DNA of 64,000 nt from Burkholderiaceae bacterium (GTDB taxonomy: Bacteria; Pseudomonadota; Gammaproteobacteria; Burkholderiales; Burkholderiaceae_E), in assembly GCA_021166725.1 (NCBI GenBank), contig JAJPES010000073.1:1-64000 (forward strand), read 5' to 3'. The position numbers were made by a program, and so were the translations under genes. The notes beneath the pieces were generated by a model, which saw nothing but the letters and a program-made list of their open reading frames with translations, was not told where the DNA came from and searched no databases. Positions 9,954 to 58,126 of this stretch are shown here, one piece after another (within the stretch, counting starts at the first letter, position 1; the number at the start of each line of letters is the position of its first letter).

Positions 9954-10011
9954 GCTCTCGTCCGACGATCCTTCGCTGCGCGACATCGCCGGGCTCGCGC
10001 GAGCGCTCGAC

Positions 10012-36354: not shown

Positions 36355-36511
36355 AGCTGTGAACGAATCCGCCATGCCCGCTCGTTCCGCCCAGGCGCGC
36401 CCACTCTGCGTTGCAAATGCCCGCCGTAGCCCGAGCTACGGCTGCGCTTTGCGCCTTGATTGGACGCGCCTGGGCGGCCCGCTCGGGCACGCCGGATTCA
36501 TTCACAGCTTC
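36353..36511. promoter_or_regulatory. Long imperfect hairpin between TRAP genes
   Basis: The space between the binding-protein stop and the small-subunit start is one large inverted repeat of 159 bases centred near 36432. The base pairs GAAGCTGT (36353-36360) with ACAGCTTC (36504-36511). The CGCCCAGGCGCG segment near 36388 has its complement near 36465, and the tip is CCGTAGC (36424-36430) with GCTACGG (36435-36441). Such a structure could stabilise the upstream mRNA or attenuate the downstream genes. Confidence 0.7.
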
Positions 36512-36533
36512 TGAGCACCGGGGCGCGGCTCGC

Positions 36534-41828: not shown

Positions 41829-42071
41829 ATGAGAACAACCGTCAAAAAGTGGGGAAACAGCGCCTCGGTTCGCATTCCCTCCGCAATCCTGCAGGCGGTG
41901 AGGCTCGAAGTGGATGACGCGATCGACATTCGCGAGGAGGACGGCCGGATCGTCATCGAGCCGCTCGATCGCCCCGAGTACAACCTCGACGAGCTCGTCG
42001 CCGGTATAACGCCCGAGAACCGGCATTCGGAGTTCGATCTCGGACATCCCGTCGGACGCGAAGCTCTTTGA
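41829..42071 (+). CDS. mazE: MazE-type antitoxin (AbrB-like)
   Basis: This 80-residue antitoxin has an N-terminal AbrB/MazE DNA-binding fold (VKKWGNSASVRIPSAILQA, residues 5-23, nearly as in E. coli MazE) and a flexible acidic C-terminal tail (NLDELVAGITPENRHSEFD) that should wrap around the toxin. The ATG at 41829 lies right after the operator palindrome. The toxin gene starts in the stop codon region (TTGA overlap). Confidence 0.94.
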   Translation: MRTTVKKWGNSASVRIPSAILQAVRLEVDDAIDIREEDGRIVIEPLDRPEYNLDELVAGITPENRHSEFDLGHPVGREAL

Positions 42072-42406
42072 TCGCCCACAGGCGTTACGTCCCTGAGTCC
42101 GGCGACGTTGTCTGGCTGCAGTTCGATCCGCAGGCCGGGCACGAACAGGCCGGACACCGGCCTGCGTTGGTGCTCAGCGCGTCGAGCTACAACGCTCGCA
42201 GCGGTCTCATGCTGTGCTGCCCGGTGACGACACGAAGCAAGGGTTATCCGTTCGAGGTCGAACTCGGCGGCGAGCCGCGAAGCGTCGTGCTTGCGGATCA
42301 GGTGAGAAGCGTCGACTGGGTCGCGCGCAAGGCGCGCTATCGAGCGAAGGTGTCGTCCGGCGAACTCGACGAGGTCAAAGCGAAGGCGCGGGCGCTGATC
42401 GCGTAG
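42068..42406 (+). CDS. mazF: MazF-type endoribonuclease toxin
   Basis: This 112-residue mRNA interferase is very similar in plan to E. coli MazF (111 residues). It has GDVVWLQFDPQAGHEQAGHRP with the catalytic arginine Arg31 in HRPALVLS, the TTRSKGYPFEV loop with Thr54 and Thr55, and VLADQVRSVDW. The start is TTG at 42068, overlapping the mazE stop; the sequence RRYVPESGD right after it fits. The last 32 bases overlap the 3' end of the nod-like gene on the other strand, so transcripts from the two strands are antisense at their ends. Confidence 0.93.
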   Translation: MIAHRRYVPESGDVVWLQFDPQAGHEQAGHRPALVLSASSYNARSGLMLCCPVTTRSKGYPFEVELGGEPRSVVLADQVRSVDWVARKARYRAKVSSGELDEVKAKARALIA

Positions 42407-44705
42407 GCGCCGGCAACGCCTCCTCCAGCGACGGCTTCAGCGACGCCGAGCGCGTCAGCACGAACCACGCGAGCGGCAGCACGCCGCCGAGCACGAAGAG
42501 AGCGCCGCCGACGACGCGCGCCCAGGTCAGCGTCTGGAAGAGCGGCCCCTGCACGAAGACCTGCGAGCGCGCGTGCCACAGGCCGTTCTCGAGCACGTCG
42601 AGGAGTTGCGCGACGCCGACCGGGAAGAGGTCGAGCACGACCATCCCCATCAGCCCGATGTTGATCGACCAGAACACGATGCGCAGCAGCGACGCGTTCC
42701 AGCGCGCCGGCTCGACGAGGCTGCGTGCGCAGAACACGATCATCGCGATGGCGAGGTTGCCGTAGACGCCCATCAGCGCGGCGTGCCCGTGGTTCACCGT
42801 GAGATAGGTGCCGTGCTCGTAGTAGTTGACGATCGGCAGGTTGATCAGGAAGCCGAACATGCCCGCGCCGAGGAAGTTCCAGAAGTTCACGCCGAGCAGG
42901 AAGAGGAAGGCCTCGCCGTGCGCGAACGACGCGCCGGCGCGCCGCGGCGCGTTGCGGAACTGCCAGGCTTCGAGCGTGAGCAGGATCAGCGGCACCACCT
43001 GCAGTGTCGAGAACACGCTGCCGATGGCGAGCGTGACCACCGGCTTGGCGTTCCAGTAGAAGTTGTGCGAGATGCCGAGCAGCCCCGAGCCGAGGAAGAG
43101 CAGCGTCGCCAGGTAGACGATGCGCGACGCGGCCGCGTGGCTCGCCAGTCGCATCAGCACCATGCAGTAGGCGAGCAGCGCGGTGGCGAACACCTCGAAG
43201 AAGGCTTCGACCCACATGTGGATGACCGCCCAGCGCCAGAAGTCGGCGACGACGAAGTTCGTCTCGGGGCCCGCGACGAAGCCGGAGAGGAACAGCAGCA
43301 GCACGCAGGCGACGCACCAGACGAGCCACTTCGGCAACGTCCACGCGTCGCCGCTTTTCCAGGTAGGGACGACCGCGCGCGCGAGCACGATCGCCCAAAG
43401 CGCGATCACGACGAACAGCATCGACTGCCACAGGCGGCCCTGCTCGACGAATTCCCATCCCTGGCTGCCCAGCCAGTGCCAGCGCTCGCCGAGCACGCCG
43501 TGCGGGCCGAGCGCGACGCCGGCCAGGCCGCCGAGCGCGGTGACGACGAGCAGCACGAACATCGCGTCGACGAGTCGGCGCTGCCCGGCGATCGCCTGCG
43601 GAGCGGCGGTGGAGATCACGAAGATCGACGAGCCGATCCAGCACGAGGTGATCCACAGCAGCGCGAGTTGCAGGTGCCAGCCGCGCACGACCGGAATCGG
43701 CAGCGTCTCGGCGAGATCGATGCCGAACACGCGCGTGATGCCGAGGAAGTCGTGCACGGTGAGAACGCCGGCGACGATCTGCAGCACGAAGAGCAGGGCG
43801 GCAACGACGAAGAACTTCCACGTCGCGCGCTGCAGCGCCGACGGCGACGCTTGCAACGGCGAGCGGACGATCGCCTCGCCGGGAAACGCGACGCGTCGAC
43901 TGCGTTGCGCCTGCGCGCTCGATATCTCGCGTTCCGACGAGCGCCATCCGGCGATCGTCGAATAGCGTCCGTAGGCGAACAGCACGCCGCCCAGCGCCGC
44001 GACCAGCGCGAGCACGGCCACCGCGCTCCACAGCACGACCTGCGCGCTCGGACGGTTGCCGGCGAACTCGTCGTACGGCCAGTTGTGCGTGTACGAGTAG
44101 CTCTCGCCCGGGCGCTTGGCGCCGCACACCCACGCGCCCCAGAAGAAGAACGCGGCGAGGTCGCGCAGTTCGGCGTCGTCGGAGATCCAGCCGGCCGGAT
44201 GGAAGGGCTCGTTGCCCTCGCCCCGAAAGCGCGCGGCGACCTGTCGCTCGAGGTCGCGTGCGGCATAGGCCTGTGCAGCGCCGATGCGCACCGTGTTCGT
44301 CGGCTCGTCGTAGAGGTTGCGCCGCAACTCGCGCTGCGCGGCGGCGAGCGCCGAGTCGGCGTCGACGCCGTTGCGCGACGCGTGCCAGTCGCGCATCGCG
44401 ATCGCCACGCGATGCAGCGCATCGGCGGTGAAGTCGGGGCCGCGTCCGGCGCCGTCGCCGAAGAAGCTGCCGTAATTCATCAGGCCGTATTTCAGGAACA
44501 CGGCCTGCCCGCGCCGGATCGCGTCGGCGGCGACCTGCGTCGCGCCCTTGTCGTCGACGAAGTCGGGCACCGGAGGCGCGTCGGAATAGGTGCGCGCGCC
44601 CATGTACAGCATGCTCAGCACGCCGATCGCGAGTACGGCGGCAAGCGGGATCCACCAGCGGCGCCGGTGCATCACGTAGCGGTTCCATAGCCGTCCCGCG
44701 CTCAT
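42375..44705 (-). CDS. nod: Putative nitric oxide dismutase (qNOR-family, Nod-like)
   Basis: This 776-residue haem-copper oxidase-family membrane protein resembles quinol NO reductase (NorZ/qNOR): an N-terminal pseudo-cytochrome domain (about 40-220) and 12-14 helices. Haem ligands are kept: His344 (RGWHLQ), His639 and His641 (VNHGH). At the FeB site His496, Glu500 and His547 are kept, but the next residue is Asn548 (SHNFYWN) where qNOR has a second histidine, and Gln569 replaces the active-site glutamate. Quinol-site residues are lost: Glu to Gly322, Phe to Val326, Asp to Gly734; only His318 remains. As I recall, this combination marks NO dismutases, which convert 2 NO to N2 and O2. It starts in ATGA overlap with the dihaem gene. 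Routine annotation would say norB. Confidence 0.78.
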   Translation of the reverse strand: MSAGRLWNRYVMHRRRWWIPLAAVLAIGVLSMLYMGARTYSDAPPVPDFVDDKGATQVAADAIRRGQAVFLKYGLMNYGSFFGDGAGRGPDFTADALHRVAIAMRDWHASRNGVDADSALAAAQRELRRNLYDEPTNTVRIGAAQAYAARDLERQVAARFRGEGNEPFHPAGWISDDAELRDLAAFFFWGAWVCGAKRPGESYSYTHNWPYDEFAGNRPSAQVVLWSAVAVLALVAALGGVLFAYGRYSTIAGWRSSEREISSAQAQRSRRVAFPGEAIVRSPLQASPSALQRATWKFFVVAALLFVLQIVAGVLTVHDFLGITRVFGIDLAETLPIPVVRGWHLQLALLWITSCWIGSSIFVISTAAPQAIAGQRRLVDAMFVLLVVTALGGLAGVALGPHGVLGERWHWLGSQGWEFVEQGRLWQSMLFVVIALWAIVLARAVVPTWKSGDAWTLPKWLVWCVACVLLLFLSGFVAGPETNFVVADFWRWAVIHMWVEAFFEVFATALLAYCMVLMRLASHAAASRIVYLATLLFLGSGLLGISHNFYWNAKPVVTLAIGSVFSTLQVVPLILLTLEAWQFRNAPRRAGASFAHGEAFLFLLGVNFWNFLGAGMFGFLINLPIVNYYEHGTYLTVNHGHAALMGVYGNLAIAMIVFCARSLVEPARWNASLLRIVFWSINIGLMGMVVLDLFPVGVAQLLDVLENGLWHARSQVFVQGPLFQTLTWARVVGGALFVLGGVLPLAWFVLTRSASLKPSLEEALPAPTRSAPAPSL

Positions 44706-45985
44706 CTGCCGCTCGTTGCGAGCGCCGCTCGCGTTTCGGTCCCGGAGTGTGGCTCGGTCGTGCAGGCCGCCGGCGCGGTATCGACCAGCGGCATCATCGG
44801 CGGCAGCTTCGGCGTCGCGACGACCAGCGGCTCGTCCATGCTCAACGCTTCGAGGAAGGCGACCAGATCGCTCTTCTCCGCGTCGCTCAGGCCCAGCGGC
44901 CGCAGCAGCGCGGACTTGTTCGGCGCGTCGCCGCCGCCGCGATCGAAGAAGTCGACCACTTCGGCGAGAGTGGCGAACACGCCGTTGTGCATGTAGGGCG
45001 CCGTATAGCGCAACTCGCGCAGCGACGGCGTGCGAAAGCGACCGATGTCGGCCGGATCGCGCGTGCGATACCAGCGACCCAGATCCTCTTCGGCATCGCG
45101 ATACAGCGCGCGCGGCGCGTCGCGCTGGGCGTTCTGCCAGCGCACCGCGACCTGCACCAGCGGACTCGAGTCGAACAGCGTCTGGCGCGGTACGCCGAGC
45201 GCGTGGTACTGCTGGTCGCTCGCCAGCGGTCCTTCGTGGCAGGCGATGCAGCGTGCCTTGCCGGTGAACAGCGCGTAGCCGCGTTGCGCGGCGGGCGTCA
45301 TCGCAGTCGCGTCGCCGGCGATGAAGCGATCGAAGGGCACGCGTTGCTGATCGGAGACGATCGTGCGCTCGAAGGCGGCGATCGCGCGCCAGGCGTCGTC
45401 GAGTTGCGGCCACTCGGTGCCGAACACGTCGCGAAAGCGCTCGACGTATTCGGGCACCAGTCGCAGCCGCATCTCGACGATTCCGGCCTTGCCGTTGCCT
45501 TCGACCGGCGCCTGCATCGCCGAGCGCGCCTGCACTTCGAGGCGGTCGATCGTGCCGTCCCACATCAGGCGGCGGAAATGGGCGGCATTGAGCACCGTCG
45601 GGTTGTTTCGCCAGAGCCGGTGGCCGGGATAGCCGGGAGCGAGCGCTTCGCGATGCGCCCAGCCGTGCTGCGCGACGTGGCACGACGCGCACGACGTCGA
45701 TGCGTCGCCGGAGAGCCGTGCATCGAAGAACAGCAGCCTGCCGAGTTCGATCTTCTGCGCCGACATCGGGTTGTCGACGGGGATCGGCACGGGGGGCAGC
45801 GGGCCCAGAGGAAGGGAAGGGGGAAGGTTGGGAGAAGGGGAAGAGAGAAGGGAGAAGGGGGAAGGGGCAGGCAGAGGCCGGGAAAGGCTCGCGAGCAGCG
45901 TCGACACGGCGACGGCGCCGGCGATCGTCGAGAAGGTGCCCGCGACGACGGCCAGGGCGAAAGCCACCGCCTTTCGCATTTTCAT
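44702..45985 (-). CDS. Dihaem cytochrome c peroxidase/MauG-family protein (second copy)
   Basis: This 427-residue periplasmic dihaem protein has haem sites CASCH (99-103) and CIACH (246-250) and the family ending TPSLRELRYTAPYMHNG. Family members are cytochrome c peroxidases or MauG, which oxidises tryptophans to mature TTQ. A signal peptide (1-24) is followed by a Pro/Ser/Leu-rich linker (about 36-71) from a polypurine tract. The start ATG at 45985 and the stop both overlap neighbours (ATGA at each end), so it is coupled to the first dihaem gene and to the nod-like gene. In an amine dehydrogenase operon a MauG-like role is attractive, but the peroxidase alternative is open. Confidence 0.88.
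   Translation of the reverse strand: MKMRKAVAFALAVVAGTFSTIAGAVAVSTLLASLSRPLPAPSPFSLLSSPSPNLPPSLPLGPLPPVPIPVDNPMSAQKIELGRLLFFDARLSGDASTSCASCHVAQHGWAHREALAPGYPGHRLWRNNPTVLNAAHFRRLMWDGTIDRLEVQARSAMQAPVEGNGKAGIVEMRLRLVPEYVERFRDVFGTEWPQLDDAWRAIAAFERTIVSDQQRVPFDRFIAGDATAMTPAAQRGYALFTGKARCIACHEGPLASDQQYHALGVPRQTLFDSSPLVQVAVRWQNAQRDAPRALYRDAEEDLGRWYRTRDPADIGRFRTPSLRELRYTAPYMHNGVFATLAEVVDFFDRGGGDAPNKSALLRPLGLSDAEKSDLVAFLEALSMDEPLVVATPKLPPMMPLVDTAPAACTTEPHSGTETRAALATSGR
45775..45880. repeat. Polypurine G-rich tract inside a coding sequence
   Basis: About 105 bases of almost pure purine on the plus strand have many runs of three to six G separated by A-rich spacers, giving several G-quadruplex-compatible patterns. 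On the coding (minus) strand they encode the Pro/Ser/Leu linker of a dihaem protein. The composition closely resembles the intergenic G-rich hairpin at 619-685. Confidence 0.7.
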
Positions 45986-47208
45986 CGGCCGGCTCCGGCC
46001 ACTGTCGCGTAGTCGCCGACCGGGGGCGCGCTCTCCGCCTGCAGCGGCGGCGACAGCGCCTCGAGGAAGGCAACGAGCGCGGCGCGCTCGCGCGCGTCGA
46101 GACCGAGCGGCTGCAGTTCGCTTGCGCGGCCGCCGCCGCGGTCGTGGAAATCGACGACCTGCGCGAGTGTCGCGAGAGTGCCGTTGTGCATGTACGGCGC
46201 GGTGTGCCCGACGCCGCGCAGCGAAGGCGTCGCGAAGCGACCGCGATCGGAGGCCCGGTGCGTCCAGGCCTGCGCGCCGCTGTCGATTTGCTCGGACATC
46301 GGATCGCGTGCGCCGTGTACCGCGTGATGGCGCAGCAGGCCGATCGTGCGCTCCGGGTCGCGCAGGATCTCGGGGTTCTCCGGCACGCTGAGACGATGCA
46401 GTCGTCCGTCGCTGAACGCGGCGCCCGAATGGCAGCGCGCGCAGCCGGCCTTGCCTTCGAACAGGCGCAGGCCCTCGCGCGCTTCGGCCGACAACGCCTC
46501 CGTGTCGCCGGCGCGAGCGCGATCCACCGCGTTCTCCTCGTTGCCGTGCGAAGCCGAATAGGCGGCGAGCGCCGCGACGATGCCGTCGATCGTGGGTGTC
46601 GTGCGTTCGCCCCAGGCGCGCTGCCACGCCTGCAGCAGCGGCGGAATCTGCCGCACGCGTTCGGCGATGATCTGCCTGTCCGCGTTCATCGTCACCGGCG
46701 ATACGAGCATGTCGACGACGACGTCGGCGAGGCTTTCGATCGGGTAGCGGCCGTCCCACATCAGGCGCGTCTTCGACGCCAGCCCGAGCAGCGACGGCGT
46801 ATTGCGAAAATGACCGGCGTGGTTGTAGCCGCGCGAAAGGGCTTCGCCGTCGGCGAAGGCCTTGTCGGGCGCGTGGCAACTCGCGCAACTGCGGCTGCCG
46901 TCTCCGGACAGGCGCGATTCGAAGAACAGCTCGCGGCCGAAGGCGACGACCGCGTCCGGCCGCGCCGCTGGCAGGCCGGCGCCGGCGAGCGCGTGCGCAA
47001 GGATCGCGCCGGTGTCCGTTGGCGCGGCGGCGGGCAACGCGACCGAGGTGGGGGCCGGGGTGGGCGCAAGCGAAGTGGAAGCGGTCGCCTTCGATGCCGT
47101 CGATGCCGGCGCGTTCGATGCCGTGGATGCGCGTATCGCGAAGTTTCCCGCCACCGCAGCACACAGCCCGGCGACGAGCGCCGCAGTCCACCCGCGCCGC
47201 CCGTTCAT
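45982..47208 (-). CDS. Dihaem cytochrome c peroxidase/MauG-family protein (first copy)
   Basis: This 408-residue periplasmic protein has two c-type haem motifs, CASCH (108-112) and CARCH (256-260), and the C-terminal TPSLRGVGHTAPYMHNG region typical of dihaem peroxidase/MauG proteins. The N-terminus is a signal or anchor helix followed by an Ala/Thr/Pro linker (about 28-66). It differs substantially from the copy immediately downstream, so the two are not a recent duplication. ATGA overlaps at both ends join it to the monohaem cytochrome and to the second copy. It could mature the TTQ of the amine dehydrogenase encoded at the head of the operon (inference). Confidence 0.88.
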   Translation of the reverse strand: MNGRRGWTAALVAGLCAAVAGNFAIRASTASNAPASTASKATASTSLAPTPAPTSVALPAAAPTDTGAILAHALAGAGLPAARPDAVVAFGRELFFESRLSGDGSRSCASCHAPDKAFADGEALSRGYNHAGHFRNTPSLLGLASKTRLMWDGRYPIESLADVVVDMLVSPVTMNADRQIIAERVRQIPPLLQAWQRAWGERTTPTIDGIVAALAAYSASHGNEENAVDRARAGDTEALSAEAREGLRLFEGKAGCARCHSGAAFSDGRLHRLSVPENPEILRDPERTIGLLRHHAVHGARDPMSEQIDSGAQAWTHRASDRGRFATPSLRGVGHTAPYMHNGTLATLAQVVDFHDRGGGRASELQPLGLDARERAALVAFLEALSPPLQAESAPPVGDYATVAGAGR

Positions 47209-47603
47209 CGCGCGGACGGCTCGCCGTAATAACCGACCATCGGCGCGTCCTGCCGGATCGCCGCGCAGCCGCGCTTCCAGGTGAGCACTTCCTCGAGCAG
47301 GCGCGCTTCCTGCGCCGCGGAAAGGTGCCGGCCGTCGGCCGGCATCCGGATGAAGAAGTTTCGTCCCTTGTCGTTGTGGAAGAACTCGCCGCGCAGCGGA
47401 CCGGCGTCGTGCTCGCGCGTCTTCGGCGCCGGATGGCAGCCCATGCAGTTCAGCGCGTACAGCGTCGCCGCCGGCGAACCCGTGCTGCGCGACTGCGCGA
47501 AGGACGGGATCGCGACAATGCCGCCGGCCAGCGCTGCGACGCCGACGGCCACGCAGGCGGCCGTCGCGATCGCGCTCAGCACTGCACGCATATGCGCGTT
47601 CAT
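47205..47603 (-). CDS. Monohaem c-type cytochrome
   Basis: This small periplasmic cytochrome of about 132 residues has a signal peptide (cleavage after SFAQS, near residue 38) and one haem motif, CMGCH (53-57); Met87 in FFIRMPADG is a possible axial ligand. It could accept electrons from the amine dehydrogenase, taking the place of the azurin or amicyanin used in known systems, since no cupredoxin gene is present. The ATG at 47603 gives the best signal peptide; one at 47621 is possible. Its stop overlaps the start of the first dihaem gene. Confidence 0.85.
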   Translation of the reverse strand: MNAHMRAVLSAIATAACVAVGVAALAGGIVAIPSFAQSRSTGSPAATLYALNCMGCHPAPKTREHDAGPLRGEFFHNDKGRNFFIRMPADGRHLSAAQEARLLEEVLTWKRGCAAIRQDAPMVGYYGEPSAR

Positions 47604-47679
47604 CGGGTCATGGCGAGGCATTTGCAACGATGAGCTTCCTGCCGCGCGAGACGGGCATGGACGATTGGCTCGCACGTTT

Positions 47680-48699
47680 TCAGGGTTGCGGCGCTTCGAC
47701 GCCGGCCAGGCTGAACAGCAGCGGCTTGCCGTGCGCGAGGATCGCCGCGGTATAGGCGTGCCGGGTCGGGCGGATCTCGGTGTTCACCGTCGTGCCGCCG
47801 TCGCGGCTCGTGAGCACGGTGCCGCCCAGGCCGACCAAGACCACTTGGCCGTCGGGCAGGCGGCAGGCCGCGGTGATCGGGTTCTGCGTGTCGGTGGACG
47901 TCTCGCGCCACGAGCGCCCGCCGTCCGCGCTGCGCAGCAGCGTTCCACCCATGCCCCACAGCAGGACCGATCCGTCGGGCGATGCCATTCCGCCCCACAG
48001 CGAGCCGCTGTACGGCACCTCGATGCGCTCGAAGTGCTCGCCGTCGTCGGAGCGGAAGACGCTGCCCATCTCGGCGGCGATCCAGGTGGCGCCGTGCGCG
48101 TCGGAGAAGATCTGGTACAGGTGCACGTCCTCGTCGCCGAGCTTCAGCCGGCGCCAGGTCGCGCCGCCGTCGTCGGTGCGCGCGGCGAAGCCGAAGGAGC
48201 CGACGACAAGACCCCGGCGCAGGTCGTCGAAGTGCACCGAGAACAGTGCAACCTCGTTCCCGGCCTCGTGGCGCAGGCTCCAGTGCTCGCCGCCGTCGTC
48301 GGTGGACAGCACGACGCCGCCGTGGCCGACCGCCCAGCCGTGCCGCTCGTCGACGAACTCGACTGCGGTGAGCGTCGCGCGCGTGGGTACCGATTGCGCC
48401 TGGCGCCAGCTGCGCCCCTCGTCGTCGGACAGCAGGATCGTTCCGAAGTCGCCGGCCGCCACCAGCCGCGCGCCGGTGCGCACCGCCGCGAGCAGCGGTG
48501 CGTGCTCGGGGTGCCGTACCTTCTGCGCCTGCACCGGGCCCGACGCAGCGGTGCCGGCCGATGCGGACTTCGCAGCGGAGTCGGCAGCGGTGGCCGCCCT
48601 GGCCGCGCCGTCGGCGGGATCGTCGCCGACCAGATTGGAGGCGGCGAGCAGCTGCGCCGCGCACAGCGCCGCCGCGATGCGAAGGAACGATCGCTTCAT
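47680..48699 (-). CDS. YCF48-like beta-propeller (Asp-box) exported protein
   Basis: This 339-residue exported protein has a signal peptide and about six BNR/Asp-box repeats (SDDEGRSW, STDDGGEHW, RTDDGGATW, RSDDGEHF, RSADGGRSW, SRDGGTT), forming a beta-propeller like the photosystem assembly factor YCF48. In bacteria such proteins are frequently encoded beside RND exporters and DUF1302/DUF1329 genes, as here. The start ATG at 48699 overlaps the TerB-like gene (ATGA). The function is unknown; assembly or sensing at the outer face is likely. Confidence 0.88.
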   Translation of the reverse strand: MKRSFLRIAAALCAAQLLAASNLVGDDPADGAARAATAADSAAKSASAGTAASGPVQAQKVRHPEHAPLLAAVRTGARLVAAGDFGTILLSDDEGRSWRQAQSVPTRATLTAVEFVDERHGWAVGHGGVVLSTDDGGEHWSLRHEAGNEVALFSVHFDDLRRGLVVGSFGFAARTDDGGATWRRLKLGDEDVHLYQIFSDAHGATWIAAEMGSVFRSDDGEHFERIEVPYSGSLWGGMASPDGSVLLWGMGGTLLRSADGGRSWRETSTDTQNPITAACRLPDGQVVLVGLGGTVLTSRDGGTTVNTEIRPTRHAYTAAILAHGKPLLFSLAGVEAPQP

Positions 48700-49181
48700 G
48701 TTTCGCCCGCCTGCTCCGGGTCGTGCGGGTTGGCGCTCGCGAAGGCCAGCACGCGTGCGCTCTCCGCCGCTTCGTCGTCGATGCCCAGCGCCGCGCACAG
48801 CCGCTGCAGCAGCTCGAGCTCGAAGGCGGCGAGCCGGCCGTCGCTGTAGACGACCTCCCACAGCATGCGCAGCACCTCGACGCGCTCGGTCGGCTCGAAT
48901 CCGTCGCGCACCGCACGCGCGAAGATCCAGTCGTCGAGGCTGGCGGCGTAGCGCTCCTCGGCCTGCTCGACGAGCCGCCGCGCATCGTGCTCCGAAAGTC
49001 CGAAGTGCTCGCGCAGCAGCCGCGCGACCGCGCCGCGCTCGTCGGGACCGGCGTGGCGATCGATGTGCGCGGCCTCGACGAGCAGCGCGGCCACTGCCAG
49101 CTGGCGCCGCTCGAATGCCGCGTGCGCGAGGGGGGGCGCGCTCGGTTCGCGCGACAGTCGGCGGATCAGGGTTTCGAACAC
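48696..49181 (-). CDS. TerB-like protein
   Basis: This 161-residue all-helical acidic protein has the tellurite-resistance TerB/DjlA-type helical domain: LLVEAAHIDRHAGPDERGAV, then LWEVVYSDGRLAAFELELL. Both carry the acidic loop (Asp-x-x-x-x-x-Asp-Glu) suspected of metal binding. It is cytoplasmic, with no signal peptide. TerB domains are found with membrane and stress systems; the role here is unknown. It is coupled to the YCF48-like gene and starts 25 bases after the exporter gene. Confidence 0.83.
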   Translation of the reverse strand: MFETLIRRLSREPSAPPLAHAAFERRQLAVAALLVEAAHIDRHAGPDERGAVARLLREHFGLSEHDARRLVEQAEERYAASLDDWIFARAVRDGFEPTERVEVLRMLWEVVYSDGRLAAFELELLQRLCAALGIDDEAAESARVLAFASANPHDPEQAGET

Positions 49182-49206: not shown

Positions 49207-51567
49207 TCAGTGGACGAGGAAAGGCGCGCGTACCGGCCGGCGGCGCGGGATCAGCACGTCGAGCGTGACGGCGATCGCCGGCAGCAGCGTGATCGCCATC
49301 AGCATGTTCACCATGAACATGAAGGTGAGCAGCAGGCCCATGTCGGCCTGGAACTTCAGTTCCGAGAACGACCAGGTGGCCACGCCCACCGACAGCGTGA
49401 TCGCGGTGAACACTGTCGCGTTGCCGGTCTCCATCAGCGCCTGGCGGAACGCGACGGCGATGTTGGCGCCCTGCGCCAGGTGCAGCTGCAGGCGGTTGTA
49501 GATGTAGAACGCGTAGTCGACGCCGATGCCCACCGCCAGCACCATGACCGGCAGCGTGGCTACCGTGAGCCCGATGACGAGCTCCTTCATGAACCACGCG
49601 CCGAGGAAGGTGGCGAGCGTCAGCGGCATGCAGCAGGCGAGCATCGCGCGCCAGTCGCGGTAGGTGAAGAACACCAGCGCGACGATCGTCAGGTAGACGT
49701 ACATCATCATCGGCAGCTCGGTGGTCTCGAGCACCTCGTTGGTGGCGGCCTGCACGCCGACGTTGCCGCTGGCCAGGCGCAGCGTCACGCCGCTCATCTG
49801 CTCGGCGTCGCGGAAGGCGCGCACGGCGGCGATCACATCCTTGACGGTGGTGGCCTTGTGGTCGGTGAGGAACACGTTCACCGGCAGCACCGTGCAGCCG
49901 GGGTTGAACAGCCCCGTGCCTTCCGGGATCAGGCCCACCGAATTCGCCAGCGAGCGCTCGTCGGCAGCCAGCGCGGTCCACTTCGGATGGCCCTCGTTGG
50001 TGCCGGCATAGGCCTGCTTGGCGAGTTGCGCGACCGAAGCCACCGAGATGACGCCCGGCGTGTTCTGCATCTGCCAGGCGAACTGATCGATGTAGGCCAT
50101 CACCGGCTGCTTGTAGCAGCCGTCCTTCGGCGCTTCGAACACGACGGTGAGCACGTCCAGCCCGAGGTCGAAGCTGGCGACGATCGACGCTGCATCGCGG
50201 TTGAAGCGCGAATCGGCGCGCAGTTCGGGCGCGCCCGAAGCGAGGTGACCGACGTGGCGGTGCTGGCTCTGCTGGAACGCGACGGCGAACAGCACCGCGC
50301 CGGCCAGCGTGCCGATGATCGCGTTGCGGGTGTTGGCGATCCTGCCCAGCCAGGCCATCACCTGCTCGCGGCGCGCACGCAGCCGCGTCATCTGCGCGAC
50401 GTAGGCGTCGTCGAAGCCCAGGTACGACGCGGCGATCGGCAGCATCACGAGATTGGTGACGATCTTGTACGCGACGCCGATCGACGCGGTGATGCCCAGC
50501 TCGCGAATCATCGGGATCGGGATCAGCGTGAGCGTGGCGAAGCCGACGAACGCGGTGACCAGCGCCATCGAGCCGGGAATCAGCAGTCCGGTGAACGCGC
50601 GCCGCGCCGCGGTGCCGCTGTCGGCGCCGGCGCAGGTTTCCTTGACGATGTAGTTGATCTGCTGCACGCCGTGCGAGACGCCGATCGCGAACACGAGGAA
50701 GGGCACGAGCACGGCGAGCGGGTCGAGTCCGTAGCCGAGCAGGCGCAGCGTGCCGAACTGCCAGACGACCGAGACGAGCGAGCAGGCGAGGGTGAGCAGC
50801 GTCAGGCGCCAGGAGCGGCAGTACAGCCACACGGACAATGCGGTGAGCACGAAGGCGAGCGCGAAGAAATGCACGACGCTGGTCGCGCCGTCGGCGATGT
50901 CGCCCACCTGCTTGGCGAAGCCGATGATCTGGATCTCGTAGCCGGCGTCCTCGTGCCGGCCGCGCACTTCCTGCTCGATGCGCGAGGCGAAGTCGAGGTA
51001 GTCGAGTTTCTTTCCGGTGGCACGGTCGGTCTCGAGCAGGTCGGCGACGACCATCGCGCCGGCGTTGTCGGTGGAGACCAGCGTTCCGATGTAGCCGCCG
51101 ACCAGCGCGTTGTGCCGGATGCGCTCGATGCGCCCGTCGTCGAGGCGGTCGGGCGTGATGTCGCCGCCGATGACGTCCTCGGCCTTGAAACCTTCCTCGG
51201 TGACGCCGAGCACGCGGGTGTTCGGCGTCCACAGCGAGGTGACGGTGCGCCGGTCGATGCCCGGCAGGAACATCACCGACTGCGTGACGTCGTAGAGCTT
51301 GCGCAGGCCCGGTGCGCTCCAGATCTCGCCGTCGCGCGCGCGCACGACGACGATGATCCGGTTGGCACCGAAGACCTCGTCACGGAACTCGAAGAAGGTG
51401 CGGATGTACTCGTGGTGCTGCGGCAGCTGCTTGTCGAAGCCGGCGTCCATGTGCAGCCGGCTGGCGAACACGCCCATCACCACGGTGAACAGCGCCAGCA
51501 GCGCGAGCACCAGCGCCCGATGACCGAACAGCAGGCGCTGGAGACGTTCTACGCTGCGGGCGATCAT
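49207..51567 (-). CDS. RND/MMPL-family exporter
   Basis: This 786-residue RND-superfamily exporter of the MMPL type (hydrophobe exporters) has two sets of six helices, with a large periplasmic domain after helices 1 and 7. The N-terminus MIARSVERLQRLLFGHR leads into helix 1. The sterol-sensing-like helices contain FAIGVSHGVQQINYI and AVGIGVDYAFYIYNRL, and the proton-relay residues fit there. It commonly co-occurs with DUF1302, DUF1329 and YCF48-like proteins in operons for hydrophobic compounds. It is 40 bases downstream of the DUF1302 gene. Confidence 0.9.
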   Translation of the reverse strand: MIARSVERLQRLLFGHRALVLALLALFTVVMGVFASRLHMDAGFDKQLPQHHEYIRTFFEFRDEVFGANRIIVVVRARDGEIWSAPGLRKLYDVTQSVMFLPGIDRRTVTSLWTPNTRVLGVTEEGFKAEDVIGGDITPDRLDDGRIERIRHNALVGGYIGTLVSTDNAGAMVVADLLETDRATGKKLDYLDFASRIEQEVRGRHEDAGYEIQIIGFAKQVGDIADGATSVVHFFALAFVLTALSVWLYCRSWRLTLLTLACSLVSVVWQFGTLRLLGYGLDPLAVLVPFLVFAIGVSHGVQQINYIVKETCAGADSGTAARRAFTGLLIPGSMALVTAFVGFATLTLIPIPMIRELGITASIGVAYKIVTNLVMLPIAASYLGFDDAYVAQMTRLRARREQVMAWLGRIANTRNAIIGTLAGAVLFAVAFQQSQHRHVGHLASGAPELRADSRFNRDAASIVASFDLGLDVLTVVFEAPKDGCYKQPVMAYIDQFAWQMQNTPGVISVASVAQLAKQAYAGTNEGHPKWTALAADERSLANSVGLIPEGTGLFNPGCTVLPVNVFLTDHKATTVKDVIAAVRAFRDAEQMSGVTLRLASGNVGVQAATNEVLETTELPMMMYVYLTIVALVFFTYRDWRAMLACCMPLTLATFLGAWFMKELVIGLTVATLPVMVLAVGIGVDYAFYIYNRLQLHLAQGANIAVAFRQALMETGNATVFTAITLSVGVATWSFSELKFQADMGLLLTFMFMVNMLMAITLLPAIAVTLDVLIPRRRPVRAPFLVH

Positions 51568-51607: not shown

Positions 51608-53500
51608 TCAGAACGAAACCGACGTGACCAGCGACAGGAAGTCGCGGTCCTTCATCAGGTTGTTGCCGCCGCCGCCCCAGAAGCGCGTATAGCCGATGCC
51701 GGCCTTCCACTTGTCGGAGCGGTTGAAGTTGAGCGAGACCGTCGTCGCCTTGCGGCCTTCGACGAACGGAACCGCGTTCGGCGAGGTGCCGTGGAAGTCC
51801 CAGGCGACGTCGAGCTGCGGCAGCACGTTCCAGCCGGTGTTGCCTACGTTGGCGTAGGTGAGGCCGGTGGAGAAGACCAGCCCCGCCGACGTCTTGTCGG
51901 GCAGCGTGTAGTCGGTGAGCAGGTACGGGATGCGCCCCGAACGGTCGAGGCCCGGGTAGTGCGCCACCGCGACTTCGCCGAGGAAGTAGCCCTCTTCGGC
52001 ACCGACCGCGCCGATGGCGCCGCCCATGTCGGCGGGTGCCAGCAGCTTGAAGCCGGTGAGGTGCGCCTGCCACTTCTTCTCGGTGACGAAGCCGCGCATC
52101 GTCTTGCCCGGGAACTCGAAGACCGAGTACTTGCCGGCCTGCGGAGGCAACACGGTGGCGTCGATGCCGACGCTGTCCTTCGGCCGGTACGACAGCTCCA
52201 TGCCGACCGCCCAGCCGCCGAGCATCGTGTTCGCCGAGACGCCGAACACGTTGCGGCTCTCGCCGTAGTCGACGAAGTAGCCCAGTCCCGCGACGTTGGT
52301 CGTGTACAGGGCGGGATCGAACTGGAACCCGACGGTGGGCAGCTTGTCGTGATAGCGGATCCAGTACAGCCCGTACTCGGTCTCCGAGCCTTCCGGCAGC
52401 CAGCGCGTGGCCAGGCCGAACTGGCCCGAGTCCTTCGGCTCGTTGGTCGGCATCTGGTCGACCAGCGTAGGCAGCGGCACGCCGGCCAGCGGAATCGTCG
52501 CGGTGCCCTGGGCCAGCTCGGCGCGCGTGAAGCGCTGGCCGGTGGTGGGATTGATCGTGCCCAGGTCGCCCACCGTTCCCGGCGGCAGGCCGAGCAGCGA
52601 CGAGCTCATGAATGCGTTGTGCCCGCCCTTGCCGATGACGTCGGTTACCGAGAAGAAGGTGCCCACCGGGTCGAACTTGAACGCGTTCCAGCGGAACTGG
52701 TAGTAGCCCTCGACGCTCAACCCGTCGGCGACGTTCGCGTTGATCGACACCATCGGCGCGGGCCGGAAGATCTCCTTCAACTGCATGCCCGGCGTATGCG
52801 CGCTTTGCAGGTTGATCGCGTTGGTGACGTTGACGCCGCCGTAGATGAAGATGTCCTCGCCCCAGCTGATCACCTGGTTGCCGACCTTGATCTTCGCCGG
52901 CCGGCCGCCGATCTCGAACTCCTTGGCCAGCCACGCGTCCAGCAGCGTGACCTGGTCGATGGCGTCGCGCGCGTCGGGATCGAGCGGCATGCGCCGGGTT
53001 TCGTCGGCTCTCCAGTCCTTGATCCACGATGCGCGCAGCATCCCGCTCCACTGGCGCGGGAAGTGCAGCACGAGTTCGTGCGTGCCCTTCAATGCCGCCG
53101 AGACGATGTCGCCTTTCTTGTAGTTGAGGTCGCCGTCGTCGGCCTGCAGGTAGTTGAAGTCGGGCACCGCGACGGTACTGCCTGCAGGCAGGCCGTAGAA
53201 CGCGTCGCTGCGCCGCCCGAGCTCGCTCGTCACCGGCGTGTCGCCTCCGTTGTCGTTGCCGATGATGCTTCGGTCGGGCTTCTGCAACCGCTTGACGAAG
53301 CCCAGCGAAATGGTCGAGTCGAAGCTTCCCTTCACCCAATCGTTCTCGAACTTGAAGGCGTGCGCCGGCGTGCCGGCCAGCCCGGCCGCCAGCGTCGCCA
53401 GCGCGAAGGTCACTGCATGCGCGGCGGCCGTCGGCCGTAGCGCGGCGCGCTTCGCCATTGCGGGCCGCTTCGTCGCGGCGCCTGCATTCTTCTTCGTCAT
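51608..53500 (-). CDS. DUF1302 family outer-membrane-type protein
   Basis: This 630-residue DUF1302 protein is probably an outer-membrane beta-barrel. The N-terminus is basic, with a long signal peptide ending GTPAHAFKF (about residue 49). The mature part has alternating amphipathic strands with many aromatic residues and NQVISWGEDIFIYGGVNVTN, a conserved DUF1302 segment; the C-terminus ends with an aromatic residue (SVSF), as barrel proteins do. The ATG at 53500 has GGGGAGAA upstream. It usually pairs with DUF1329, its neighbour here. Confidence 0.9.
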   Translation of the reverse strand: MTKKNAGAATKRPAMAKRAALRPTAAAHAVTFALATLAAGLAGTPAHAFKFENDWVKGSFDSTISLGFVKRLQKPDRSIIGNDNGGDTPVTSELGRRSDAFYGLPAGSTVAVPDFNYLQADDGDLNYKKGDIVSAALKGTHELVLHFPRQWSGMLRASWIKDWRADETRRMPLDPDARDAIDQVTLLDAWLAKEFEIGGRPAKIKVGNQVISWGEDIFIYGGVNVTNAINLQSAHTPGMQLKEIFRPAPMVSINANVADGLSVEGYYQFRWNAFKFDPVGTFFSVTDVIGKGGHNAFMSSSLLGLPPGTVGDLGTINPTTGQRFTRAELAQGTATIPLAGVPLPTLVDQMPTNEPKDSGQFGLATRWLPEGSETEYGLYWIRYHDKLPTVGFQFDPALYTTNVAGLGYFVDYGESRNVFGVSANTMLGGWAVGMELSYRPKDSVGIDATVLPPQAGKYSVFEFPGKTMRGFVTEKKWQAHLTGFKLLAPADMGGAIGAVGAEEGYFLGEVAVAHYPGLDRSGRIPYLLTDYTLPDKTSAGLVFSTGLTYANVGNTGWNVLPQLDVAWDFHGTSPNAVPFVEGRKATTVSLNFNRSDKWKAGIGYTRFWGGGGNNLMKDRDFLSLVTSVSF

Positions 53501-53587: not shown

Positions 53588-54955
53588 TCAACGCTCGCCG
53601 CGGCGGCGCAACTCGTCCGGACTGAACATGTTCGGGTTGATGCGGCCTTCGCGTCCGGCGAGCCAGTCGGTGGGCGCGGCCTCCTGCGTGGCCGTCTCCG
53701 CGATGTAGCGCCCGACGTTCAGGTCGTAGCCGACGAACTCCTGGCTCACGCACGCCGGAATCTCGGGTGCGACCCACAGGCTCGCTTCCTGCACGCGCCA
53801 GACCTTGCCCTGCGCGTCGTACAGGTCGGTGAGCAGCAGCGTCCAGCTGTCTTCGTCGATGAACATCACGCGGCGCGGGAAGATGTGGCGCATGCCTTCC
53901 TTCAGCGTCGCCTCGACGACCCAGACGCGGTGCAGCTCGTAGCGCATCAGGTCGCGGTTGACGTAGTCGGGCAGGTAGATGTCCTTGTACTTGCGGCTCT
54001 TGTCGATCAGCTTCCAGCTGTTGTACGGAACGTAGAGCTCCTTCTTGCCGACGAGTTTCCAGTCGTAGCGGTCCATCGCGCCGGCGTACATCGGGTACTG
54101 GTCGACCGTCTCGAGGTTCTCGTAGCCGGGCACCGGGTTGTCGTAGGCGAACGACGGCGCGCGGCGCACGCGGCGCTGGCCGGGGAAGTACAGCCACGCG
54201 TCGGAGCCGCGATCCATGAACCAGTGCACGAGGATCATTTCGCCCGCGCGCGCCGCCGGCGAGACGACTTCGTTCAGGATGTTCGCTTCGGACATCTTCA
54301 GCTCGTCGAAGCTCTTGTCCTTGTCCATGTGCAGCGGGTAGGTGACCCACTGGTTCTGCGCGAGCTGGGAGAAGTCGCCGCTCTTGGCCGAGAACAGCGT
54401 CGAGTAGTGTTCGATGCGCCCCTCGCTCTGGATGCGCAGCTTGTGGTTCCAGACCGCTTCCGCGCCGTTCTTCGGAACCGGGAACAGCACGCCGCCGCCG
54501 ACGGCGTTCTCCAGTTCCCAACTGCCGTCCTTCAGTCGCGCCACGCGCGCGTTCTCGGCGCTGCGCTTGTAGACGCTGTCGGCGTAGCCACACGATCGGT
54601 GCGTCGGATAGACGTCCATCCGGTAGCCGGGCAGCGTGCGAATCAGGGTCTGCTGGCCTTCGGAGAGCTTGTCCTTGTACTTGTCGACGTTCGATGCGTC
54701 GATCGAGAACAGCACCTTGTCGTCCTTGTACGGATCGACGCGCGGGTCGGACAGCTTCCAGTTGGCCGGCGCCTTGGTGATGCCGCCGTCCCAGGCCGGA
54801 ATCGTGCCGTCCTTGTTGCCGGCCTTCTCGGCGCCCATCGGGGTGAGGTCCTTGCCGAGGCGTGCAGCCTCGGCCTCGGGAACGGCCGCCGAAGCGGTGC
54901 CGCAGGCGAATGCGAGCGCGAGCGCTGCGCAGAGGGTGGTGGTCCTGGCCTTCAT
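53588..54955 (-). CDS. DUF1329 family periplasmic/outer-membrane protein
   Basis: This 455-residue DUF1329 protein has a clear signal peptide (MKARTTTLCAALALAF through ASA, cleavage near 23), then the family start EAARLGKDLTPMGAEKAGN. It includes PGQRRVRRAPSFAYD and ends with INPNMFSPDELRR. The fold is thought to be LolA/LolB-like lipid binding, which suggests handling of a hydrophobic molecule between membranes. The ATG at 54955 has GGAGGAG upstream. It starts 14 bases after the amine dehydrogenase light chain, so it is certainly in the same transcript. Confidence 0.9.
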   Translation of the reverse strand: MKARTTTLCAALALAFACGTASAAVPEAEAARLGKDLTPMGAEKAGNKDGTIPAWDGGITKAPANWKLSDPRVDPYKDDKVLFSIDASNVDKYKDKLSEGQQTLIRTLPGYRMDVYPTHRSCGYADSVYKRSAENARVARLKDGSWELENAVGGGVLFPVPKNGAEAVWNHKLRIQSEGRIEHYSTLFSAKSGDFSQLAQNQWVTYPLHMDKDKSFDELKMSEANILNEVVSPAARAGEMILVHWFMDRGSDAWLYFPGQRRVRRAPSFAYDNPVPGYENLETVDQYPMYAGAMDRYDWKLVGKKELYVPYNSWKLIDKSRKYKDIYLPDYVNRDLMRYELHRVWVVEATLKEGMRHIFPRRVMFIDEDSWTLLLTDLYDAQGKVWRVQEASLWVAPEIPACVSQEFVGYDLNVGRYIAETATQEAAPTDWLAGREGRINPNMFSPDELRRRGER

Positions 54956-54969
54956 CTCTCCTCCCTGTC

Positions 54970-55509
54970 TCAGGATTTTTCCGCCACGCCGACGATCAGC
55001 GACGTGGTGCAATGGAACATCGTGCTGGTGCTGCCCATGCACCAGTTGATGTCGTTGTGCAGCGTGATGCGGTACGCCGGCCGCTCGCCGATGTTGGTGT
55101 TGCACAGGCAGCGTCCGCACGCGCTCTTGCCGCAGCAGTCGAAGTAGCTGATCAGGTAGTCCTTGCCGTCGGCCGGATTGCGGCAGGTGCCGATCCACGA
55201 CACTTTCGACGGCTCGGTGCCCGGCGGGCACGAGTTCACGGTGCCGCCGCAGCACGAGCACAGGAACCCGTCGACGCCGCAGTATTTCCAGTAATCGCAC
55301 TGCTTGTCGTCGGTCTGCACCTTGCCGCCTTTCGCCGCGCCTGCGCCGTGCGCATTGGCGGCGTGCGCGCTGCGGTCGAAGGGCAGCACCGGCAGCGCGA
55401 CCGAGGCGCCGAGGAGCATGCGTCCCAGTCGTGCGATCGCCGAGCGGCGCGACGTGCGCTGGGCGGCGGCGCGCGCCGATCGTTCGAATGCCGCATCGAA
55501 CCAGTTCAT
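54970..55509 (-). CDS. aauA: Aromatic amine dehydrogenase light chain (TTQ subunit)
   Basis: This 179-residue small subunit carries the tryptophan tryptophylquinone cofactor. A Tat-like leader (TSRRSAIARLG, residues 19-29) precedes the cysteine-rich mature part. Recalled residues of the Alcaligenes aromatic amine dehydrogenase align at constant spacing: TTQ pair Trp105 (SWIGTC) and Trp156 (NDINWCM), catalytic Asp124 (YFDCCG) and Thr168 (FHCTTS). FLCSCCGG and SWIGTC match the aromatic rather than the methylamine enzyme. The enzyme oxidises amines such as tyramine or tryptamine to aldehydes in the periplasm. It is coupled to mauD by ATGA. Confidence 0.9.
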   Translation of the reverse strand: MNWFDAAFERSARAAAQRTSRRSAIARLGRMLLGASVALPVLPFDRSAHAANAHGAGAAKGGKVQTDDKQCDYWKYCGVDGFLCSCCGGTVNSCPPGTEPSKVSWIGTCRNPADGKDYLISYFDCCGKSACGRCLCNTNIGERPAYRITLHNDINWCMGSTSTMFHCTTSLIVGVAEKS

Positions 55510-56129
55510 GGCCTGCTCGCCTCCATCGTCTGCATCGTTTCGCCGCGGTCGCCGAGGAACTCCTGCACCGAAGCGACGCCGAGTTCGCGCGCCGTGAACA
55601 GGCTCTCGAGCTGCTCGCGCGAATTGACGAGCCCCTTGGCGCGCACGCGCCCGACTTCGTCGACGAGCACCGCGTAGGGCAGCTTGCCGATCCGGTAGGC
55701 CATGCCGAGCTCGGTGGACAGCACGTACGGGAAGGCCGCCAGGCCCGCGCGCGTGCGGAACGCCTGGTGCTCGTCGCGTTCGCCGTCGCTGGCGAAGGCG
55801 AGTTCGAGCCAGCTGCGCTCGTCGGCGGCGATGCGCTGCAGGATCGGCAGCAGCTTCTTGCACACCGGGCAGGTGGGCGACAGGAAGAAGAGCAGCAGGC
55901 TCTTGTCGCGCGCGCCGCCGGTGGCGAAGGCGCGCCCGTCGAGCGTCTCCAGCGCCAGCGCGGGCGCGACGTCGCCGACTTTCGGTCCGGCGTCGAGCAT
56001 CAGCGCGCCCATCGGCGCGATGCGTTCGTACAGCACGCCGATCTGGCGCGCCAGCGCGTACACGGTAGCGAGCAGCGCGAGCACCGCGACCCACAGGACG
56101 AGGTTCGAGACGATCAGGGCTTCGGTCAT
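55506..56129 (-). CDS. mauD: MauD-like thioredoxin-fold maturation protein
   Basis: This 207-residue protein is anchored by one N-terminal helix (about 6-26) with a periplasmic thioredoxin-like domain bearing CPVC (87-90). MauD is required for correct disulfide formation in the six-disulfide light chain of TTQ dehydrogenases. The sequence LLLFFLSPTCPVCKKLLPIL is typical. The ATG at 56129 overlaps the mauE stop and the stop overlaps the light-chain start. Confidence 0.93.
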   Translation of the reverse strand: MTEALIVSNLVLWVAVLALLATVYALARQIGVLYERIAPMGALMLDAGPKVGDVAPALALETLDGRAFATGGARDKSLLLFFLSPTCPVCKKLLPILQRIAADERSWLELAFASDGERDEHQAFRTRAGLAAFPYVLSTELGMAYRIGKLPYAVLVDEVGRVRAKGLVNSREQLESLFTARELGVASVQEFLGDRGETMQTMEASRP

Positions 56130-56698
56130 CGGCGGATCCCCGGCGAGGGCAGGCGGTGGGCGTGCGGCGACAGGCGCTGCGAATCGGACAGCAGTTCGTC
56201 GGCGGCGGCGTAGACGAACCAGAGCGCTGCGGCGGCGAAGGTGGCGGTGAAGGCGTCGAGCCACACGAGCGGGCGCGAGGCGGCCGGCGCAGCGGCGAGC
56301 GCGCATGCGGCAACGAGCACGGCGTTGCGCATGGGCAGGCGCCAGGAGAGCGTCTGACGCTGGCCCGGGCCGCCGCAACCGCAGTCGATGTCGATGCGGC
56401 CGCGCAGCAGGTTGGCGACGACGGCGCCGCTGACCAGCACGAGGATCGTGCCGGCGAGCAGCGCGCCGGCCGGGCGCAGGCCCGGCACGACGAGCAGCGC
56501 CACCGCCGCGATTTCGGCGAAGGGCAGCACGAAGCCGAGGGCGCGCGCGGCGGCCGGCGGCAGCAGCCGGTAGCGCTCGACGGCGAAGGCGAAAGCTTCG
56601 AGGTCGACGAGCTTGGACCACGCGCCTACGGCGAGCACCAGGGCGAGCGCGCCGGCCACCGCGTGGCCGAGCACCGGATCGAGCGCAGGCAGCGCCAT
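56126..56698 (-). CDS. mauE: MauE-like membrane maturation protein
   Basis: This 190-residue integral membrane protein with four or five helices belongs to the MauE/DoxX-like methylamine utilisation family. It has GAWSKLVDLEAFAFAVERYRLLP at the start and the conserved cysteine loop DIDCGCGGPG, thought to exchange disulfides with MauD. It is needed for light-chain maturation in known mau clusters. It overlaps the heavy-chain stop by one base (TGATG) and mauD by ATGA. Confidence 0.92.
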   Translation of the reverse strand: MALPALDPVLGHAVAGALALVLAVGAWSKLVDLEAFAFAVERYRLLPPAAARALGFVLPFAEIAAVALLVVPGLRPAGALLAGTILVLVSGAVVANLLRGRIDIDCGCGGPGQRQTLSWRLPMRNAVLVAACALAAAPAASRPLVWLDAFTATFAAAALWFVYAAADELLSDSQRLSPHAHRLPSPGIRR

Positions 56699-57846: not shown

Positions 57847-58126
57847 CACGGGAGCACTCCTCGTTCGGTCGATTCTTCGTCGACTCGCAGCGATTCTAGG
57901 AGCAGGTTTCGGCAAGGCGTTAGCCGAAATCGGCAATCGATGCGCGCCGGCGCGACCTTTCGTTGAACGCCGGAAATCGGTTGCGGATGCAACGAACCGT
58001 TGATTTCGGGGCTTGCCAAGCGCGTCGAATAGGGATTCAATCTGCCTCCCGCGGTCGTCTCACGACCCGGCCCTGGGCAGTTGCGGCCGCGGGCGATTCC
58101 CGTGGCCGGCAATCGCGGAGACTACG
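57847..58126. promoter_or_regulatory. Divergent regulatory region, amine dehydrogenase operon/AraC
   Basis: This 280-base region separates the divergent amine dehydrogenase operon and AraC gene. It contains TTTCGGC (57907-57913) with GCCGAAA (57923-57929) as a perfect 7-bp inverted repeat, the repeated element GCCGAAATCGG / GCCGGAAATCGG (about 57923 and 57969), and GTTGC-GCAAC (57980-57993). These are plausible AraC half-sites. I could not fix the promoter elements. Confidence 0.55.

Follow-up and report, generated by a model that had tools for sequence, protein, structure and literature searches.

The nod locus and its operon

We analysed a stretch of DNA of 64,000 nt from a Burkholderiaceae bacterium (GCA_021166725.1, contig JAJPES010000073.1, positions 1-64,000, forward strand), hereafter called the window. 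On the minus strand it carries nod, a gene for a putative nitric oxide (NO) dismutase similar to the quinol NO reductases (qNOR), which stands at the end of an operon for a predicted aromatic amine dehydrogenase (AADH). We propose that O2 made by Nod from NO may serve two neighbouring di-haem proteins and the dehydrogenase cofactor, tryptophan tryptophylquinone (TTQ), in a denitrifying Burkholderiales host. We consider this the best reading, but taken as a whole chain it is tentative, and on balance rather doubtful, while several of its parts are much firmer. The genes concerned are:

42375..44705, minus strand: nod, putative NO dismutase, qNOR-like, 776 amino acids, with Asn548/Gln569 and three of four quinol-site residues replaced
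44702..45985, minus strand: diheme2, MauG/MbnH-like di-haem enzyme, two CxxCH (PF03150, 145.6 bits; TIGR03791 MauG, 213 bits; closest PDB entry 6e1c)
45982..47208, minus strand: diheme1, second MauG/MbnH-like di-haem enzyme, two CxxCH (PF03150, 117.6 bits; MbnH and MauG, 170 bits each)
47205..47621, minus strand: cytc, small c-type cytochrome, one CxxCH (CMGCH), start codon uncertain, kept beside diheme1 in relatives
47680..48699, minus strand: YCF48-like beta-propeller protein (PF14870)
48696..49181, minus strand: TerB-domain protein (PF05099)
49207..51567, minus strand: MMPL/RND-family exporter (PF03176)
51608..53500, minus strand: DUF1302 protein (PF06980)
53588..54955, minus strand: DUF1329 protein (PF07044)
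54970..55509, minus strand: aauA, aromatic amine dehydrogenase light chain (PF02975; AADH 2agl 191 bits versus methylamine dehydrogenase (MADH) 3l4m 129)
55506..56129, minus strand: aauD/MauD, thioredoxin-like accessory protein (TIGR02661, 196.8 bits, above cut-off)
56126..56698, minus strand: aauE/MauE, accessory membrane protein (PF07291)
56698..57846, minus strand: aauB, aromatic amine dehydrogenase heavy chain (AADH 2agl 312 bits versus best MADH 108)
58013..59116, plus strand: AraC-family regulator, divergent from the operon (PF12833)

Read along the minus strand, the order is aauB, aauE, aauD, aauA, DUF1329, DUF1302, MMPL exporter, TerB, YCF48-like, cytochrome, diheme1, diheme2 and nod. 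With the starts as chosen, the intergenic gaps from aauB to nod are -1, -4, -4, 14, 87, 40, 25, -4, 58, -4, -4 and -4 bases. A first-pass annotation of the window had placed nod at the end of an amine dehydrogenase operon, and this is borne out: the operon is real, and there are 4-base start/stop overlaps at cytc/diheme1, diheme1/diheme2 and diheme2/nod. Pfam scans gave no match for the small cytochrome and recognised no oxygenase among the operon proteins.

By its sequence the dehydrogenase is of the aromatic and not the methylamine type. Its heavy and light chains are both AADH-type, and W105 and W156 of aauA align with the AADH sequence at what we take to be the TTQ sites. A caveat is that one MADH light chain (3c75) scores 174.5 to aauA, over a longer stretch.

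The nod reading frame starts with an ATG at 44705 and its stop ends at 42375. The plus-strand frame at the same place was rejected as the gene, since it does not encode the Nod protein. Pfam finds COX1 and NorB_cytochrome_c-like (PF22085) domains in the protein, so that a periplasmic cytochrome c-like domain is retained, while an NCBIfam search of the protein gave zero model matches. The nearest solved protein is the Geobacillus qNOR 3ayf (508 bits). In agreement with this, an AlphaFold2 model built with 36 sequences (pLDDT 85.3, pTM 0.88) has 3ayf as its first-ranked Foldseek match, with a TM-score of 0.88.

Active-site residues of Nod and of NO reductases

Residues were assigned from an alignment in 3ayf numbering. 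At the FeB and catalytic positions H508, E512 and H559 of qNOR correspond to H496, E500 and H547 of the window protein, while H560 is replaced by N548 and E581 by Q569. At the quinol site H328 corresponds to H318, and E332, F336 and D746 are replaced by G322, V326 and G734. The codons at 547, 548 and 569 are CAC, AAC and CAG. All these residues except His318 had been listed in the first-pass annotation, together with the AAC and CAG codons; the list is exact and the codons are present in the DNA, but it omitted that His328 stays as His318. The annotation had also excluded alignment slips. We agree, and reject both a slip and a sequencing error, because the same nine residues are identical in 7/7 full-length orthologues from the window's genus (18 genomes including the window's own, with Nod orthologues 76-91% identical).

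For a wider comparison 99 distinct proteins were aligned, made up of the best 80 of 236 scanned genome-contig relatives, 20 relatives' loci, two qNOR and the window protein, with duplicates dropped (seven loci, L021-L026 and L047, were dropped as duplicates of L002-L009). The pair at positions 560 and 581 is Asn/Gln in 81 of these proteins and His/Glu in 17, and one has Asn with a truncation before 581; there are no mixed pairs. Asn at 560 is thus accompanied by Gln in 81 of 82 proteins, the remaining one being truncated, and the Asn548/Gln569 pair is not due to chance. His/Glu is found in all 17 NO reductases compared, two of which are solved qNOR structures. It is also found in 36/36 qNOR-like loci of a further check (11 relatives' loci and 25 from the order sample, with 11 overlapping the first set).

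The set of residues that marks a qNOR, i.e. the FeB His pair, the catalytic Glu and the quinol-site Glu, Phe and Asp, is not found in the window protein. Neither does it have the composition of a cNOR, in which NorB is joined by a haem c-bearing NorC partner: it is a single chain of 776 residues with its own periplasmic domain, and the haem c motif CxxCH is absent from it.

The quinol site is less uniform than the catalytic site. Of the 82 Asn-type rows, 66 retain His328, 48 Phe336 and none Glu332; Asp746 is likewise retained in none of the 80 rows that have a residue at this position. The argument from the quinol site is therefore valid only partly across the clade, given that His328 and Phe336 are kept so often. 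Deviations at His328 are described for environmental nods (PMC10286720).

The Nod clade

A quick maximum-likelihood tree was made from 65 rows, after 34 of the 99 had been removed: L009, L020, L042_2, L075 (partial) and 30 for size. The 51 Asn/Gln rows form one side of a branch with an SH-aLRT of 100, and the window protein lies among the Pseudomonadota rows; long-branch warnings apply to L011, Geobacillus, L067 and others. Because the Asn/Gln proteins form one clade that includes the window protein, we assign it to the putative Nod family, and judged by residues and tree it almost certainly belongs to this clade. According to the first-pass annotation two observations would overturn its assignment, a wide occurrence of Asn/Gln in authentic NO reductases and a position inside the qNOR clade with the missing His and Glu supplied from elsewhere in the chain. 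Neither is seen: the NO reductases compared have His/Glu throughout, and the window protein is in the Asn/Gln clade, outside the qNOR rows. Algoriphagus and Cecembia, two genera from which nod has been reported (PMC10264387, PMC13386854), are represented in the clade, while the original Nods of Methylomirabilis, HdN1 and Muricauda are outside the tree sample.

Family membership thus stands, on residues and clade, but one part of the earlier claim does not, namely that the conversion of NO to N2 and O2 by Nod is established. In the founding paper NO dismutation is labelled as speculation (PMC3413370), and a 2026 paper states that the enzyme has never been isolated and that contrary results are on record (PMC13386854). 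Nor is Nod confined to methane and alkane oxidisers, as had been assumed, since related proteins sharing these residues are also found in Planctomycetota, Bacteroidota and other groups. The balance tilts moderately towards the window Nod having NO dismutation activity.

Two further observations concern the wider family. Four loci from Candidatus Scalindua (anammox) metagenome-assembled genomes (MAGs), L048, L050, L051 and L058, encode Asn/Gln Nod proteins that are about 52% identical. One Melainabacteria MAG contig (L042) holds both a Nod-type gene (Asn/Gln, 8484-10730) and a partial qNOR-type gene (His/Glu, 4-2064), a few kb apart.

Co-occurrence of nod, di-haem genes and AADH

Within the genus, nod is found in 9 of the 18 genomes, and PF02975, the TTQ light chain, in exactly those nine and in none of the other nine. 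Eight of the nine have nod and AADH on a shared contig, separated by about 10-14 kb. The ninth, G002, has them on different contigs: on C20 nod is divergent from a gene for an AraC-type relative of the operon regulator (58% identity), and C33 holds an AADH cluster, with aauA 55% and aauB 42% identical to those of the window.

The group nod, diheme2, diheme1 and cytc is kept together in 8/9 nod-bearing genus genomes and in five loci outside the genus (L027-L030, L035). A co-directional nod-aau operon is found in the genus and in L027, while in the Sulfuritalea loci L028 and L030, and in L035 within its contig extent, aau is upstream on the opposite strand. In the gammaproteobacterium L040 the aau genes are opposite to nod and adjoin it, and no di-haem genes were found at this locus. 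The link between nod and AADH recurs in several arrangements and lineages.

Outside the genus, the TTQ light chain is present in 9/14 nod-bearing Pseudomonadota. It is on the same contig as nod in G426, G427, G429 and G439, aauB is beside nod in G434 (L035), G428 has the genes on short contigs, and in G431, G432 and G472 they are on separate contigs. These searches, and those for NirS below, covered the nod genomes other than the 25 of L076-L100. In the order sample the TTQ light chain is found in 22/398 genomes besides the window's own (23/399 over the cut-off with it). The same sample has no Nod-type match besides that in the window's genome, and the 51 other matches are all at most 39% identical.

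Among 19 AADH loci of nod-less genomes, the run DUF1329-DUF1302-MMPL-YCF48 is found in four, and one of these (G117) also has the cytochrome and the di-haem pair. At 5013-8166 of this locus (L210) the pair is followed by two genes whose products by eye resemble a Tat-type small protein and, with 875 residues, an arsenite-oxidase-type molybdoenzyme. In the genus, G010 has an extra gene between YCF48 and the cytochrome (L200, 12966-15089), by eye similar to a pyrroloquinoline quinone-dependent alcohol dehydrogenase and absent in the window; other genus loci also have an additional gap there.

With NirS called as a full-length Cytochrom_D1 match above 490 bits, a NirS-type match is found in 15/18 genomes with both nod and AADH versus 7/21 genomes of the order with AADH only (G225, with a partial light chain, is excluded). 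Nod is accordingly dispensable for AADH, even in denitrifiers, and the nod-AADH pair leans to denitrifiers.

Denitrification and aromatic-acid genes of the host

The host genome is 89% complete. The first-pass annotation had proposed a search of the rest of the genome for nitrite reductase, and a NirS-type match is indeed found, on C48. In addition, C12 encodes a cNOR in which HH and E are as usual, with a NorC-like gene located upstream of it, and C32 encodes a NosZ domain. For NirK no genus genome is above the cut-off; the window's own genome scores 193 bits, below it. Outside the genus, NosZ, PaaA, NirK, HmgA and BoxB were searched in 14 Pseudomonadota among 48 nod genomes.

Of the oxygen-using enzymes for aromatic acids, BoxB is found in 8/9 nod-bearing genus genomes, including the window's own, and in 9/9 nod-less ones. 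HmgA is found in 4/9 nod-bearing genomes, again including the window's own, and above the cut-off in 5/9 nod-less ones. PaaA (phenylacetyl-CoA epoxidase) is found in none of the nine genus genomes with nod and AADH, including the window's own, versus 6/9 of the others. Phenylacetyl-CoA epoxidase was thus rejected as the O2 user. The PaaA pattern suggests that aromatic acids have differing fates in the two sets of genus genomes.

Other neighbouring genes

A MazE/MazF (PemK-like) pair is located at 41850-42406 on the plus strand, and the toxin gene overlaps the 3' end of nod by 32 bases on the opposite strand; such a pair adjoins nod in L021 too. A TRAP transporter (DctP, DctM) is found near the amine operon, at 35317-38700 on the plus strand. 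A plasmid search returned 318 records, each below 60% identity.

A possible role: oxygen for TTQ

The oxygens of TTQ are said to derive from O2, a result credited to Pearson in 2006. TTQ is matured in the periplasm, where a first hydroxyl is put on a Trp and MauG then adds the second one together with the cross-link (PMC7876137). MauG reacts with H2O2 and oxidises Trp (PMC6405878). The two operon "peroxidases" appear nearest to MauG and MbnH, with best NCBIfam scores for diheme1/diheme2 of 170/213 bits to MauG and 170/205 to MbnH, all below the cut-offs.

In the proposed mechanism, NO made by NirS would reach the active site of Nod, where two NO would be rearranged, with no external electron donor, to N2 and O2. 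This O2, or peroxide formed from it, would be consumed nearby by the two MauG/MbnH-like proteins, and the oxidant would also be spent in the oxygen-requiring steps that build TTQ. Amine oxidation could thereby start under anoxic, nitrate-reducing conditions. As the oxygen demand of TTQ would be small, even a slow Nod would suffice. If NO dismutation is granted, the use of O2 for maturation of TTQ or the di-haem proteins has something just short of an even chance. The stricter version, where Nod is a dedicated O2 source for a protein-derived cofactor and the di-haem proteins spend this O2 on oxidising Trp to TTQ, seems somewhat unlikely; if it held, a TTQ enzyme regarded as aerobic would function during denitrification.

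The gene arrangements bear on this in different directions. In Sulfuritalea the di-haem genes stay with nod while aau is on the other strand, which favours a link between Nod and the di-haem proteins. In L040 nod is beside aau with no di-haem genes, which favours a link between Nod and AADH.

A number of observations weigh against the proposal. To date Nod is unpurified (PMC13386854), and the window Nod retains His318 of the quinol site. The di-haem proteins fail the MauG equivalog cut-off of 443.85 bits (TIGR03791). Further, at the column that probably corresponds to the sixth haem ligand, a Tyr in MauG and in BthA (for BthA see PMC6405878), diheme1 has His and diheme2 Phe; among 11 diheme1 relatives in which the motif was found, this column has Tyr in 8 and His in 3. 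The TTQ light chain is missing in 5/23 nod-bearing Pseudomonadota and in all 34 searched nod genomes of other phyla, and supplying TTQ can therefore not be the general role of Nod. No di-haem relative is found in 18/19 AADH loci of 16 nod-less genomes (mostly about 10 kb on each side, four extended), so TTQ is evidently made without them. The seven AADH-bearing denitrifiers without nod have been described above; one of them, G117, has AADH, a NirS-type match and the same di-haem pair, and therefore counts against the Nod-di-haem and the Nod-AADH links alike. Conversely, a NirS-type match is missing in 3/18 genomes with nod and AADH (G010, G016, G432). Finally, the co-occurrence within the genus rests on the joint trait changing two to three times along the tree (p 0.5 in a sign test), and Fisher tests take no account of relatedness and set partly different orders against each other. 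It was rejected as independent proof, as the joint trait changes so few times; the rpoB tree is a side check with 13 uneven rows, and no rpoB was found in the window's own genome.

Four alternatives were weighed. AADH needs an electron outlet, and Nod could be a variant NO reductase that takes these electrons through azurin or the operon cytochrome c and turns NO into N2O (or N2). The c-type cytochrome gene that overlaps the di-haem genes just upstream and the retained PF22085 domain would fit such a sink. The absence of a haem c motif from Nod, the replacement of the FeB His in 82/82 and of the catalytic Glu in 81/81 clade members reaching the site, and the presence of a normal cNOR in the host make it unlikely. 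Alternatively, Nod might protect the quinone cofactor, haem enzymes or amines by removing NO, with the product being secondary. Regulators of NO or oxidative stress near other nods have led to the suggestion of a detoxification role (PMC13386854), and the host's NirS-type gene is consistent with it; but the host has a cNOR, and the adjoining regulator of the operon is AraC-type, which would fit induction by amines. We regard protection as improbable.

In a third alternative, the O2 from Nod could feed oxygenases such as BoxB and HmgA, acting on aromatic acids derived from the amines, instead of TTQ. Both enzymes are encoded by the window's own genome and by other nod-bearing genus genomes; yet they are found in nod-less ones too, PaaA, the usual phenylacetate route, is absent from the nod-bearing genus genomes and present in six of the nine nod-less ones, and the operon has no recognised oxygenase, so ring cleavage has a low probability. 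There may also be no functional tie at all, nod having been inherited or moved along with a useful operon without a special part in amine use. G009 and G015 nest among nod-bearing genomes, where the joint loss of nod and aau can be a single deletion each, and the 5/23 Pseudomonadota genomes already mentioned have nod without AADH. The several arrangements across lineages speak against it, as does G002, which keeps both nod and AADH on separate contigs although its AADH cluster is less like that of the window. Mere carriage is thus not a likely explanation either.

The supply of oxygen to TTQ would matter because organisms are known to form O2 without light in few ways, among which a 2023 paper on groundwater lists the dismutation of chlorite, NO and H2O2 (PMC10264387), and because the enzyme proposed for NO dismutation is still unproven. 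In the MAGs of PMC13386854 no clear O2-consuming system was found beside nod, and its purpose was left open. In the window the neighbours are themselves candidate O2 users, i.e. MauG-related di-haem proteins and a dehydrogenase that requires oxygen for its TTQ cofactor. What the Nod oxygen is for can now be tested, as in anoxic cells the amount of TTQ in AADH is simple to measure.

Comparison with known systems

The first-pass annotation considered the placement of nod in an amine operon to be new. This no longer applies, because a paper of June 2026 (PMC13386854) describes nod in Burkholderiales next to a mauABED cluster and two "cytochrome C-peroxidases". Among the matches listed in the open-access literature, no paper joins Nod to TTQ or MauG. 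As far as can be compared by description, the published loci share nod, the two peroxidases and the mau-type cluster with the window. To this our analysis adds the aromatic type of the dehydrogenase, the affinity of the peroxidases to MauG/MbnH, the recurrence of the link in further arrangements and lineages, and a host with NirS, cNOR and NosZ.

Compared with qNOR 3ayf, the window protein is alike in fold and length but differs at Asn548, Gln569, Gly322, Val326 and Gly734. With MauG, MbnH and BthA, diheme1 and diheme2 share PF03150 and two CxxCH motifs, and among NCBIfam models they score highest to those of MauG and MbnH; they stay below the curated cut-offs and have His (diheme1) or Phe (diheme2) at the ligand position. 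With the Nod/NorZ of Methylomirabilis, HdN1 and Muricauda, the window protein shares a qNOR-like chain without haem c, the FeB His to Asn and catalytic Glu to Gln replacements and changes at the quinol site (PMC3413370). It differs from them in its host, a Burkholderiales MAG with genes for nitrite, NO and N2O reductases, and in its gene being within an AADH operon, without a recognised adjoining oxygenase.

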